Shown here piece after piece: positions 27,536 to 35,499 of a DNA stretch of 38,129 nt. Below the pieces are notes generated by a model, which was not told the DNA's origin, did no database searches, and saw only the letters and a list, made by a program, of their open reading frames with translations. The DNA comes from Acidobacteriota bacterium (GTDB taxonomy: Bacteria > Acidobacteriota > Terriglobia > Terriglobales > Acidobacteriaceae), in NCBI GenBank assembly GCA_021793405.1, contig JAJYSV010000039.1, forward strand, positions 1 to 38,129, in the 5' to 3' direction. Position 1 is the stretch's first letter; every line of letters begins with the position of its first letter. The position numbers and the translations under genes were made by a program.

Positions 27536-27715
27536 CTACTTGCCGTCGGCTAGGACGAGGCGTCCGAAGTTCTCCGGAACATGGAATGTCTTACTCATGG
27601 TGGGCTGCCATGTAAGGGATGTTTGATCGCCCTGCGGTCCCTGCACTCTGAAGAGGTTGGCTCGAAATGTCGTGCCGGAGCGAGGAGTTTGCAGTAACTT
27701 GAAACCCTGAAGCCA
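27536..27715 (-). pseudogene. 3' end of a CBM9-like carbohydrate-binding protein gene
   Basis: In this frame about 59 residues read GWLQGFKLLQTPRSGTTFRA, then NLFRVQGPQGDQ, then TSLTWQPTMSKTFHVPENFG and RLVLADGK before a TAG stop. This matches the C-terminal block of carbohydrate-binding module family 9-like proteins, in which R-x-N-F/L-x-R is followed by W-x-P-T and FHVPExFG. There is no start; a TAA lies just upstream in the same frame, right at the junction with the isomerase fragment. The piece is best read as the surviving 3' end of a gene whose front was lost in a deletion. The family match is from memory of the motif and has not been searched. Confidence 0.65.
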
Positions 27716-28248
27716 GCCTTAATTTTGGCGGCCGCGACCCACTCCTCGATTTCAACCCAGACCCGATCATCCTTCACGGTGCCGGTGACTTGGTGCAACG
27801 GAATCTTCGCCCTCTTCATGACGTTGGCAATCTCCGGAAGCGGACATGCGGAACAATACTCCAGCCAGCGCCCCGTCATGGCGGTGCGGTTTTGAAGCTT
27901 ACTAAGCGCGGTATAGTCCATCGCCGCATCCGGCTGTAATTTCAGTAGAATTACCGGCACGCCGGCCCGTTGCACAAGCGGCAGAACGATACTGCTAACC
28001 GCATAGGTTGTTACATAAATAAAAAGCAGATCGATGTTTTCGCTGCGAAATTGATGGCCTGCCTTGAGCCCGCGCGCAGGTTTATCAATCAAACCTAGAT
28101 TGACAAGATTTACCCCTGGATAGCTTAGTCTGGTTGCAACCTCTCGAAGATGATCTTCCAGTCGTGATTTAAGATTTTCGAACTGTCCCCAATATGCTTG
28201 GAGCCCTATGCCGCACAGACCAACTTGCAGATTCTCAGTTTGCTTCAT
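27716..28248 (-). pseudogene. 5' fragment of a sugar isomerase (L-arabinose/L-fucose isomerase-like)
   Basis: ATG 28248 has GGAGG ten bases upstream. It opens a frame of about 177 recognisable residues: MKQTENLQVGLCGIGLQAYW, then LKAGHQFRSENIDLLFIYVT, then QRAGVPVILLKLQPDAAMDY, then TGRWLEYCSACPLPEIANV and QVTGTVKDD. This is the N-terminal domain of AraA/FucI-like isomerases, which are normally 450-600 aa. The family character stops near AAAKIKAGF (about 27716), and the frame runs on for another 40 residues (to 27595) of unrelated sequence. That tail overlaps the CBM9-like fragment read in a different frame. The catalytic C-terminal part is missing, so no isomerase activity is expected. It follows the kinase remnant by 46 bases. 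Confidence 0.75.
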
Positions 28249-28294
28249 GGGGCCAGGTCCTCCTGTTGTTTCACGCACGACGTAATTGACGCGA

Positions 28295-28668
28295 TCATTC
28301 CTGGTTGCTGTGGGACGCATGTGCGGAGGCGTTTCGCGCCCGCCACAGCGCGCCCAGTGCAGGGTCGACAGTTTGCGAAAGAAATTGTGCGGCAGGATTC
28401 ACTCTTTTAACGCCCGCACCCAGCCGACCACGCTGGGAATCGCGATGCCAGACAGTCCAACGCATGTGCCGATGATGGAGTCGAGTGTGACGCCGGACTG
28501 CGTCGCGATAGAGGACAAGATCGCTTCCAGATTTGTGTCCGCACTCGCTTCATCCACGCGCGTGATTTTGATGGAGCCGGCTTGCGCGCGGGCTAGCACA
28601 TCACTTCCTGTACCCAGCACGCACTGTGTTTTTGTCGCGCCTGCATCGATCCCGAGAAAGAACTCCAT
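28295..28668 (-). pseudogene. BadF-type (N-acetylglucosamine kinase-like) gene with internal deletion
   Basis: ATG 28668 starts MEFFLGIDAGATKTQCVLGT, the phosphate-1 motif of BadF/BadG/BcrA-type sugar kinases, and continues to VGLSGIAIPSVVGWVRALKE, where TGA stops it after 89 residues. Just beyond, in another frame, NPAAQFLSQTVDPALGALWR (then ARNAS) resembles the extreme C terminus of the same family and ends at TGA 28295. The middle, roughly two thirds of the gene, is therefore absent. A deletion that shifted the frame explains this. The start lies four bases after the GH18-like stop, so the gene was once part of that operon. Full-length relatives phosphorylate amino sugars such as GlcNAc. 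Confidence 0.72.
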
Positions 28669-32334: not shown

Positions 32335-33630
32335 CTAGGAGAACCGCGTCTTTTTCCAAAGCCAATATCCTCCACCCAGAAATGTCAGGAGGAGAATTGC
32401 AAGCAGGCCATCGGCCCAGGCCATATTCATCGGGACGGTGGGACGGCTGGCTCCGCGGGCCAGCACAACGAAAATGCAACACGCAGTCAGAATGATGGCA
32501 TAGTCCCACCAGCCCCGGCGTATCCCGGGTGTATCTTTCGTGTCCGTGCCTGTTTGCGCCTGGAAGACGCGGGTATGATCGAGGGAATACCGATCGCATT
32601 CGCGCGTGATGGCACGATCGGTTGAAGCGTGTTCTGCGCTGCTGGCTGCCGAGGTACTGATTCCCAGTGCGCCGAGCAGCATCAGCAACGATCCCGCAAC
32701 GACGATCACGTGATGCGATGCATCGGTGGAGGCCAACTCGCCGAAGACCAGTGCGCCCCAGATGAGGCCCCATAATTGATTTGTGTTGGAAAGGGGGATC
32801 GCCCGACCAATTCCTATGTATTTTGTGGAATAGTGTTGAAACAGGTCGCCGATAACCCAGCAGAAGCCGCCCAAAAAGAGCCAGAAGACGGCGGAATGTG
32901 CCCTCCGCAATTCAGTAACCAGGGGATGGATCCCTCCGCGCAGGCTGACTGCGAGCAGCAACATGGTCACCAACTCGCCTACGGTGAAAACGGTGACGAA
33001 GGAAAGGGGATTCATGCCGCTTAGATAAGCTTTGCGGTATGGGACATACATGGTGCCCCACATCAGGCTGGCACAAAGAGCGGCGAGGATGCCCTGACGG
33101 GCGTGGGCGGGAGCGATCAGGGAGCCGTGCATGGAACTGTAAGCCAGCATCAGGGCGGCGATCAAAATTGCCAATGTGCCACCCAGGACCTTCAGCCAGT
33201 TTCTGATACTTGCTCCGCGCAATTCATTGAATAGTAGCCATCCCCAGAAGATTCCTACCAGGCAATTCGTATTCCAGAGGGGGAAGGCAATGGCCAGGCC
33301 TACGTCGCGGATGGCGAACACAGTTAAGGTGTTGGCAATCGCCCAGAGAGCGCCAGCCAGGATACCCCACACAATCAGGTGCCTGTTTTCCCGTACGTCG
33401 GCAAAGACATACTTGCTTCCCTTGAGCAGGGAAGGAATCGTCCATTGCTCGACGAATACACCCGCCACCATGCATAGAGAGATTGCAATGGGAGAAATGG
33501 TTGTGCTGGCGAGCTTCGCGGGAACTTCCGCGCCTCCCAACCATGCCCCTGCGGCCAGACCGCAGACGACACCGACGCCATGCATCGAATGCGCTGGAGA
33601 GGAAGCTGTTTTCTTTGCAACTGTCGGCAA
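32335..33630 (-). CDS. GRP-family sugar transporter (glucose/ribose porter, RhaT-like)
   Basis: This multi-span permease of 431 aa belongs to the drug/metabolite transporter superfamily, GRP branch. It has about ten spans in the core (VGVVCGLAAGAWLGG, VWGILAGALWAIANTLTVFA, PLWNTNCLVGIFWGWLLFNE, LMWGTMYVPYRKAYLSGM and PLSNTNQLWGLIWGALVFGE). The paired PLWNTN/PLSNTN motifs mark the two repeat halves. A C-terminal extension of about 90 residues has two further hydrophobic helices and ends LWKKTRFS. The start is TTG 33630; its Shine-Dalgarno AGGGAG overlaps the stop codon of the 29-aa gene upstream. This coupling implies one transcript. The substrate is a monosaccharide by family, but which one is unknown. 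Confidence 0.85.
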   Translation of the reverse strand: MPTVAKKTASSPAHSMHGVGVVCGLAAGAWLGGAEVPAKLASTTISPIAISLCMVAGVFVEQWTIPSLLKGSKYVFADVRENRHLIVWGILAGALWAIANTLTVFAIRDVGLAIAFPLWNTNCLVGIFWGWLLFNELRGASIRNWLKVLGGTLAILIAALMLAYSSMHGSLIAPAHARQGILAALCASLMWGTMYVPYRKAYLSGMNPLSFVTVFTVGELVTMLLLAVSLRGGIHPLVTELRRAHSAVFWLFLGGFCWVIGDLFQHYSTKYIGIGRAIPLSNTNQLWGLIWGALVFGELASTDASHHVIVVAGSLLMLLGALGISTSAASSAEHASTDRAITRECDRYSLDHTRVFQAQTGTDTKDTPGIRRGWWDYAIILTACCIFVVLARGASRPTVPMNMAWADGLLAILLLTFLGGGYWLWKKTRFS

Positions 33631-33641
33631 GCAACTTCTCC

Positions 33642-33731
33642 CTAGCGTAGATACAGCAGCACGGCAATTCCAAAAAGAAGCACGACCACAGGAATCCAGA
33701 AATGACTATCGGTGAGAATTGCTTTCCACAT
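33642..33731 (-). CDS. 29-aa single-span membrane microprotein coupled to the sugar transporter
   Basis: The frame ATG 33731 to TAG 33642 encodes MWKAILTDSHFWIPVVVLLF followed by GIAVLLYLR. This is a short N-terminal polar part with a single transmembrane helix of about 18 residues and a terminal arginine. GGAAAGG upstream of the ATG is a good ribosome binding site. The TAG stop is part of the transporter's Shine-Dalgarno region, and the TTG of the transporter lies 11 bases on. The size and coupling suggest a small subunit or regulator of the transporter, as with other small membrane proteins that bind permeases. It matches no named family that I recognise, and no function beyond membrane location is claimed. 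Confidence 0.65.
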   Translation of the reverse strand: MWKAILTDSHFWIPVVVLLFGIAVLLYLR

Positions 33732-33740
33732 GATGCCCTT

Positions 33741-33810
33741 TCCGGATGGTTTCGTGCATGTCCATCCTACTTGACTCTAAACTTGCCCGGCAGAAAAATT
33801 ATCCGGATGG
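33741..33810 (+). promoter_or_regulatory. Putative promoter flanked by a direct repeat, upstream of the PHP hydrolase gene
   Basis: TTGACT (33771-33776) and AAAAAT (33794-33799), spaced by 17 bases, form a plausible sigma70 promoter reading toward the gene at 33970. The 9-base sequence TCCGGATGG occurs on both sides of it, at 33741-33749 and 33802-33810, 61 bases apart, as could suit an operator pair. The -10 is only a 4/6 match. Confidence 0.35.
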
Positions 33811-33969: not shown

Positions 33970-35499
33970 GTGAAGTTGAGGTGGATCGGGATTACTCTGT
34001 TCCTTTCTCTGGCTCTCAACTGCATCTGTCGGCTGAGTTATGCCGACTCCGTCAAGCCCGATCTCGTATTGCAAGGCACGATCACACACGCACAGAACCA
34101 AACCTACGTTCAGGTACCGTTCAATATCCCTCCAGGTGTTTTTCGCCTGACGGTGACGTTTCAATACACGGGCAAGGAGCAGGGAACCAGACTTGATCTT
34201 GGTATTTTTGATCCTGATCGATTCCGCGGAGCCAGCGGCGGAAACAAATCCAGCTTCACCATTAGCGAAACCGATGCGACTCCTTCCTATTTGCCCGGAC
34301 CCATCATAGCCGGACGATGGTTTCTTTTAATCGCTGTGCCAAACATCCGACCGAACGTTGTCGCTCACTACACGGCCGACATCGTCTTTGAAACCAAGCC
34401 GCAAATCGAATCCTTCTCGAATGGCCCGCTGCGCGACGGGCCAGCCTGGTATCGCGGTGACTTGCACATGCACACTGGACATAGTGACGGCACGTGTCCT
34501 AGCCAGACCGGCAAATCCGTTCCGTGCCCCGTGTTTGTCACTGCGGAGGCAGCCATGCGCCGCGGCCTGGATTTTATTGCAATCACGGATCACAACACTG
34601 TCTCCCAATATGACGCGATACGGGAGTTGCAACCTTATTTCGATACGTTGCTCTTCATCCCGGGTCGCGAAATCACGACGTTCTGGGGGCATGCGAATGC
34701 CTTCGGCATTACCAGATTCGTCAACTATCGCGTTGGCAGCCCGGGCGTGCCCAACATCAATGCCGTAGCCCGGCAAATCAATCGGTTGGGCGGAATCATT
34801 TCCATCAATCACCCCAATGATCCCACTGGAGAAGATTGTCTCGGCTGCGGCTGGACTCCCAATCCACCTGCCGATCTGCATCTGTTTTCCGCCATCGAAG
34901 CGGTGAACGGTGGGGCCTTGCGAGGGCCCAATTCTGGCGTCAGCTTTTGGGAGAGGCAGTTGGACGACGGGTATAGAATTCCGGCCATCGGCGGCAGCGA
35001 CAACCATCACCCAGCATGGCCGCTCGATCATGCTGACTCTGTAGGGATTCCAACGACCGTCGTATATGCGCAAAATCTGTCGATGCAGGCGATTCTCGAT
35101 GGAATCCGCGCGGGTCACGTATTTATTGATCTAACCGGCTCCCGCAACCGGATACTGGAAATGACGGCTTCCGCGCCGGGACAAGCAACTGCCGTGATGG
35201 GCGATGCGCTGCACGCGGCTTCCGGTGCTGATCTTCAGTTGACCGTGCATATCGTGGGATGTTCGGGCTGGATCTTGAAAATATCGGACAACGATCACGG
35301 AGATTCAGCGCTTTCGCCCCAGCCTGTTTCCCAGCAAGATGCGATCCTGCACTTTACATGGCGCAGCGACGGTAAACGGCATTGGCTGCTGCCGCAAGTG
35401 GAAACGCATCAAGGGAAACTTGAGGTTCTTGGCAATCCAATTTATGTGAACTATTCCGGAAAGAATGACGAGACGGTTCGCGCAACAAACGGCAAGTGA
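33970..35499 (+). CDS. Exported PHP/CehA-McbA family metallohydrolase
   Basis: The 509-aa protein starts at GTG 33970 (GGAG six to seven bases upstream) with a Sec signal peptide ending near LSYA (residue 25). A beta-rich domain of about 120 residues precedes the catalytic PHP domain. Metal-binding motifs are in order: YRGDLHMHTGHSDG (H166, H168), AITDHNT (D207, H208), GREITTFWGHANAFG (E234, H241), SINHPND (H281) and GGSDNHHPAW (D344, H346). This is the pattern of PHP phosphoesterases and of the CehA/McbA hydrolases. Cysteines in GEDCLGCGW may form a disulfide. A beta domain ends the protein. It is followed 15 bases later by a PLC-like gene, so the two probably work on related substrates outside the cytoplasm. 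Confidence 0.88.
   Translation: MKLRWIGITLFLSLALNCICRLSYADSVKPDLVLQGTITHAQNQTYVQVPFNIPPGVFRLTVTFQYTGKEQGTRLDLGIFDPDRFRGASGGNKSSFTISETDATPSYLPGPIIAGRWFLLIAVPNIRPNVVAHYTADIVFETKPQIESFSNGPLRDGPAWYRGDLHMHTGHSDGTCPSQTGKSVPCPVFVTAEAAMRRGLDFIAITDHNTVSQYDAIRELQPYFDTLLFIPGREITTFWGHANAFGITRFVNYRVGSPGVPNINAVARQINRLGGIISINHPNDPTGEDCLGCGWTPNPPADLHLFSAIEAVNGGALRGPNSGVSFWERQLDDGYRIPAIGGSDNHHPAWPLDHADSVGIPTTVVYAQNLSMQAILDGIRAGHVFIDLTGSRNRILEMTASAPGQATAVMGDALHAASGADLQLTVHIVGCSGWILKISDNDHGDSALSPQPVSQQDAILHFTWRSDGKRHWLLPQVETHQGKLEVLGNPIYVNYSGKNDETVRATNGK

Follow-up and report, generated by a model that had tools for sequence, protein, structure and literature searches.

A conserved single-span microprotein encoded beside a DMT-type transporter in Acidobacteriota is probably a small partner subunit

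Carriers of the DMT superfamily are generally taken to function singly or as homo-oligomers. In other superfamilies of secondary transporters, very short single-span proteins encoded beside the transporter are known: MetS is the small subunit of MetP, a member of the NSS family, and sodium symporters have other small subunits. A further described group comprises small proteins of 28-49 amino acids that act on transporters, namely AcrZ, which binds as a single helix, MgtR, MgtU, MgtS, MntS and SgrT (PMC10710835). Their partners are RND, P-type ATPase, PiT and PTS transporters and an Mn exporter, no DMT case being named in the part of that paper drawn on here (PMC10710835). Here, we describe a 29-residue microprotein encoded next to a DMT-type transporter in a 38,129-nucleotide stretch of Acidobacteriota DNA (the window; contig JAJYSV010000039.1 of assembly GCA_021793405.1, a genome of 4.6 Mb in 137 contigs). 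Its almost constant co-occurrence with this transporter in the Acidobacteriota genomes examined suggests that it is probably a small partner subunit.

The locus is outlined in Table 1. An earlier note, made from the letters of the window, had picked out a 29-residue open reading frame with a clear Shine-Dalgarno sequence, and both lie exactly where it put them, with GGAAAGGG standing 4 nt from the ATG. It had also placed the stop codon within the Shine-Dalgarno region of the transporter gene, which is nearly exact: the GGAG follows the stop codon, and the last G of the TAG extends it. The gap from this stop codon to the transporter TTG (33630) is 11 nt. The single-span prediction comes from the sequence itself and from helix 9-27 in the AlphaFold model described below.

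Table 1. Microprotein-transporter locus: features and their positions in the window.
Feature	Position	Strand	Basis
Microprotein gene, 29 aa, predicted single span, MWKAILTDSHFWIPVVVLLFGIAVLLYLR	33642..33731	-	Open reading frame list and sequence (ATG at 33731, TAG at 33644-33642); conservation; pN/pS 0.175
Shine-Dalgarno of microprotein, GGAAAGGG	33736..33743	-	Good match; 4 nt 5' of ATG; sequence reading
Shine-Dalgarno of transporter, GGAG	33638..33641	-	Directly 3' of microprotein stop codon; sequence reading
Transporter gene, 431 aa, TTG start, PF06800 / RhaT-GlcU-like	32335..33630	-	Pfam; AlphaFold model of a 97% identical homologue

The transporter resembles the GRP carriers (RhaT, GlcU and RbsU; PF06800, TIGR00776). 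It belongs to PF06800 with 59.9 bits against a cut-off of 26.3 (E 3.3e-16), a cut-off also passed by three of its homologues, and it matches PF00892 (EamA) at E 1e-10. It differs from the described GRP carriers in falling far below the cut-off of the NCBIfam RhaT subfamily TIGR00776 (52.3 bits versus 319.6), in about 100 extra C-terminal residues and in its pairing with a microprotein. A search of PDB sequences with a transporter profile gave no match at E<=0.1. A transporter 97% identical to that of the window occurs in Acidobacteria bacterium isolate WH2.bin123, and the AlphaFold input was a fused reading of locus L141, whose transporter shows this same 97% identity, with the 12-nt in-frame gap retained and the stop codon read as glycine; the alignment had 71 rows, 17 of them fused and 54 taken from 63 transporter-only rows. 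The model (mean pLDDT 86.3, pTM 0.87) has its core closest, by VIA-align, to the choline importer LicB (7paf_A; Z 27.2, rmsd 2.6 over 274 residues), with 5i20_C at Z 23.4, and Foldseek returned the mouse CMP-sialic acid transporter first (E 1.5e-5) and LicB second (2.5e-5). By its predicted fold, the transporter is thus a member of the DMT superfamily. The DMT fold spans residues ~19-325, and two further long helices are predicted at ~374-392 and ~403-428, in the ~100 residues past the DMT match (transporter numbering is model numbering minus 34; in the model these helices are 408-426 and 437-462 and the DMT match ends at ~360, that is, ~326 of the transporter). Beside these two helices, the C-terminus (window 32335-32655) has a conserved TRFS-like end. 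As an idea, this extra region could dock the microprotein. The peptide itself is modelled as helical at residues 2-6 and 9-27, with pLDDT block means of 86 and 90 for residues 1-20 and 72 for residues 21-30, and values below 50 for residues 30-47.

Is the microprotein a member of any described family? At E<=1, the window peptide finds no model in Pfam or NCBIfam; among 10 family members, three families were each matched by one member, at E 0.071, 0.075 and 0.87, and a PDB sequence search with the peptide profile gave no match at E<=1. The microprotein is like MetS in being a short single-span protein encoded beside a transporter and differs in having no NCBIfam match. Its likeness to AcrZ and the other small proteins, drawn by description, lies in size and in a putative action on a transporter, and the difference lies in the families of their partners (PMC10710835). 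The earlier note had proposed a candidate undescribed pair, and this proposal holds within the titles and abstract openings of the open-licence literature, where no account of the pair was found, and within Pfam and NCBIfam. Thus, the kind is known, a single-span microprotein beside a transporter, but the family and the DMT partner appear new within the searches made.

The microprotein is conserved at related loci. It lies directly upstream of the transporter at 11 of 12 close transporter loci, drawn from 41 genomes and including that of the window, and the twelfth (L010) ends at a contig edge; 10 of these close-locus peptides make up the alignment and profile A1. A wide scan took in 130 loci, comprising the window, 49 genome regions and 80 loci, the best among 362 related ones, with titles that mostly name acidobacterial taxa and in a few cases another taxon or none; some genomes occur twice (e.g., L130 and L141), and L129, a peptide alone at a contig end of G022, was excluded. 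At 122 of these 130 loci, the peptide is found within 900 nt upstream on the strand of the transporter, with no best hit on the opposite strand, which argues that the reading frame is not a chance one. Seven of the eight misses have the peptide elsewhere: at L128, the transporter is at a contig end and the same genome has the peptide at the end of a different contig (L129), at L187 it proved on re-examination to lie directly upstream, and at L142, L168, L184, L199 and L158 it is nearby in a different arrangement. The eighth, L145, is at a contig end, its contig stopping inside an inositol oxygenase gene, and the peptide of L142 lies beyond that enzyme. Contigs titled Burkholderiales, Rhodanobacteraceae and Proteobacteria (L158, L189 and L196) carry the locus at 59-62% identity and are probably mislabelled or mixed metagenome bins. 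A plasmid search gave two records only with the locus, one of them Granulicella tundricola pACIX901, for which the PLSDB table, itself incomplete, has no gene at the microprotein position; the original record may annotate it, as the locus tags skip ACIX9_RS19215 at that place.

Conservation extends to the way in which the peptide varies. The 130-locus scan (including the best 80 of 362) provided 122 core sequences, comprising 109 distinct nucleotide cores and 103 distinct protein cores, all 122 of which fit the core pattern of D at 0, H/Q at +2 and W/L/V/I at +4. In 36 non-overlapping sister pairs, the coding frame gives a pN/pS of 0.175, against 1.25 and 3.25 for the two alternative frames, and differences at codon positions 1, 2 and 3 number 118, 53 and 312, so that the third position takes 312 of 483. 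The microprotein is under purifying selection. The two features on which the earlier note had staked its claim of a real gene, namely, the presence of the peptide beside homologous transporters (here in counts of 12, 130 and 148 places) and a synonymous over non-synonymous bias among relatives, are therefore both present; together with co-occurrence with the transporter, they agree in making a real gene very likely, close to certain. Size and hydrophobicity are all that would recommend a chance reading frame or the small hydrophobic toxin in a type I toxin-antitoxin system, and in view of the conservation, the selection and the linkage to one transporter clade, such an origin is scarcely credible, a chance frame being refuted by the in-frame selection.

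The constraint is unevenly distributed around the helix. All 103 distinct protein cores share P(+6) and G(+13), L(+17) is kept in 102 and F(+3) in 101; D(0) is also invariant in 103 cores but is required by the locating pattern. Variability over +3 to +20 follows a helical period, with a moment peak at 100 degrees (permutation p 0.0008, or 0.0047 if the best angle within 85-120 is allowed), and the conserved residues form a stripe, D-x2-F-x2-P-x2-V-L-x2-G-x2-L-L-x2-L, on one helix face, made up of D8, F11, P14, V17/L18, G21, L24/L25 and L28. One conserved and one variable face would suit a helix packed on a partner along one side and exposed to lipid on the other. A column-coupling scan of the peptide against the transporter in 109 paired sequences (effective 73) gave no interface, the top scores looking lineage-driven. 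In being short, hydrophobic and conserved, with a predicted single span and a record of purifying selection, the microprotein resembles the transporter-bound microproteins and is a candidate member of that class.

How faithfully does the microprotein accompany the transporter? Genome searches were confined to the phylum of the window. In a phylum sample of 396 genomes, the transporter (E<=1e-20) is present in 40, at 41 places, and profile A1 finds 41 peptide matches at E<=2.7e-6 in exactly those 40 genomes, the next match being at E 0.005; only G000 and G017 of the 40 supplied rows of this 10-row profile. Most of the 40 (36) belong to f1, the family of the window, and the other four come from f31, f40 and f75. 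In a family sample of 300 genomes, which overlaps the phylum sample and includes eight genomes that supplied A1 rows, both genes are present in 137, neither in 159, the transporter only in three and the peptide only in one (peptide in 138 and transporter in 140 genomes in total). Within the genus of the window, both genes are present in four of 10 genomes and neither in six. The transporter-only genomes are G461 and G574, with partial genes, and G501, where a full gene lies less than 1 kb from a contig end in an assembly that is 85% complete in 550 contigs. The peptide-only genome, G527 (L222), is 97% complete and has no transporter match, its peptide being possibly an orphan or possibly the result of an assembly gap.

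Copy number points in the same direction. Eight genomes have two transporter matches, of which six (G023, G192, G491, G503, G555 and G586) have two peptides and two (G606 and G560) have one, and G591 has one transporter and two peptides; in G192, each of the two peptides resembles those of its own transporter's clade. Weaker DMT relatives bring no peptide with them: G000, G003, G004, G013 and G017 hold such relatives and one peptide each, and in G005, G006 and G024, which hold weaker relatives only, the profile search gave no peptide match. Peptide and transporter distances are correlated (Mantel r 0.61, 0/999 permutations as high), as is expected for any two co-inherited genes. The proposal in the earlier note of a small gene paired with the transporter, probably as subunit or regulator, is supported by conservation, selection and near-complete co-occurrence, and we hold with considerable confidence that the microprotein is likely a dedicated partner of this transporter.

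The order of the two genes bears on what kind of partner it is. Among 148 transporter places in the family, the peptide precedes the transporter on its own strand by no more than 300 nt at 122 and by 446 nt at one, is divergent at 11 (within ~1.2 kb), downstream at six (within ~1.1 kb) and 10 kb downstream at one, and is absent from the contig at seven. For example, the transporter comes first and then the peptide in G619 (L225), the pair is divergent in G568 (L226), and G451 (L224) has the peptide after inositol oxygenase, at a distance of 10 kb from the transporter. At the 122 places, the gap between the last peptide residue matched and the first transporter residue aligned has a median of 56 nt and a range of 7-259 nt. 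Translational coupling, as the earlier note had suggested, fits the window (stop-to-transporter gap of 11 nt) and its three closest relatives G009, G003 and G004 (12, 6 and 6 nt), but gaps are mostly longer elsewhere and the peptide is sometimes downstream of or divergent from the transporter, so that coupling is not essential. A rival reading is that the reading frame is a cis-acting leader whose translation opens the ribosome-binding site of the transporter, with the peptide itself of no importance. The stop codon in the window does abut the transporter Shine-Dalgarno sequence, and there is a precedent in a small open reading frame that can promote translation of a transporter, as set out in the portion of the source used here (PMC8092293). 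However, the amino acid sequence is conserved (pN/pS 0.175), the spacing is variable, and the frame is divergent or downstream within 1.2 kb at 17 of the 148 places and once 10 kb downstream. The peptide is thus a separate protein whose place is not fixed at the 5' end of the transporter mRNA, and a leader, largely refuted by selection and rearranged gene orders, is very improbable.

Another possibility is that the microprotein regulates the transporter in trans, as an inhibitor or as an adaptor for degradation or stabilization of the MgtR, MgtU or SgrT kind, rather than being a standing subunit. Known small proteins of 28-49 amino acids do so, at least in the part of the literature source drawn on (PMC10710835), and the divergent placement at 11 of 148 places would fit separate control, whereas near-complete co-occurrence and upstream same-strand placement at 122 of 148 would fit a constant partner better. 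We consider trans regulation unlikely, though the most serious of the alternatives.

The neighbourhood of the pair offers a clue to the substrate. In the window, a CehA/McbA-type metallohydrolase gene (33970-35499, plus strand) lies upstream of and divergent from the microprotein gene, and GH29 and GH18-type genes lie downstream on the strand of the transporter. Farther along, at 27595-28668, an 89-residue reading frame matching about the first quarter of PF01869 (BadF/BcrA-type kinase) is followed by a 241-residue frame without a Pfam match, the two being possible gene remnants. Over 50 loci, with each neighbour cluster identified by one scanned representative, the recurrent neighbours are a LacI regulator (23 loci), inositol oxygenase (PF05153; 21), a PfkB kinase (17) and alpha-N-acetylglucosaminidase (7). 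In the phylum sample, a hand count finds inositol oxygenase no more than 5 kb from the transporter at 21 of the 41 places, and among genomes of the same family, all 27 with the enzyme have the transporter and none of the eight without the transporter has the enzyme. These patterns make myo-inositol the likeliest substrate for much of the clade, in which the transporter would be a candidate importer. The alpha-N-acetylglucosaminidase gene (NAGLU; PF05089, one representative scanned) is divergent from the transporter at L089, L093-L096, L098 and L102; L089 and L093-L096 come from genomes in which inositol oxygenase was not found, which gives a hint of an amino-sugar substrate, and the genomes of L098 and L102 do hold the enzyme. 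The window has glycosidase neighbours, and inositol oxygenase was not found in its genome.

Could inositol oxygenase, or the whole inositol pathway, be the real partner of the peptide, with the link to the transporter secondary? The enzyme is close to about half of the transporter places, as counted above, and the peptide adjoins it in some rearranged loci. However, 12 of the 40 genomes with transporter and peptide, that of the window included, gave no inositol oxygenase, though some of these are incomplete, and of the 54 phylum genomes with the enzyme, 28 have the transporter and 26 lack both transporter and peptide. It is the transporter, rather than inositol oxygenase, that the peptide follows; these mismatches weigh against the enzyme as main partner, and such a role is most unlikely. 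The peptide beside inositol oxygenase rather than the transporter (G451, L142, L168, L184 and L199) would also fit a wider pathway role.

The reading that we prefer, and regard as probable, is that the microprotein serves the neighbouring transporter, a GRP/DMT-type carrier for sugars or polyols, as a dedicated small subunit in the inner membrane. It would insert in the inner membrane as a single span, its conserved stripe would pack against the transporter by direct binding, and this packing would most plausibly stabilize the transporter, assemble it or set its activity. A subunit is suggested by conservation, purifying selection, near-complete co-occurrence, a peptide per transporter copy in six of eight two-copy genomes and a linkage that survives at most places with changed gene order; a structural subunit rather than a regulator seems the best single choice.

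A broader and more tentative proposal, to which we give somewhat less than even credence, is that one family of DMT sugar or polyol importers in Acidobacteriota may be two-component, with a core that needs a separate single-helix subunit of ~29-50 residues, and that many of its members may import myo-inositol for inositol oxygenase. The present finding brings to light a family of microproteins for which Pfam and NCBIfam have no model and which is easy to overlook on account of its small size, and it names a probable partner open to direct testing. For a transporter so far described simply as a sugar carrier, the linked inositol oxygenase points to a substrate that can be tested. Should the peptide prove to be an obligate subunit, the DMT carriers would have a two-component type among them, and expressing the transporter in a foreign host without its peptide could fail and lead annotation astray.
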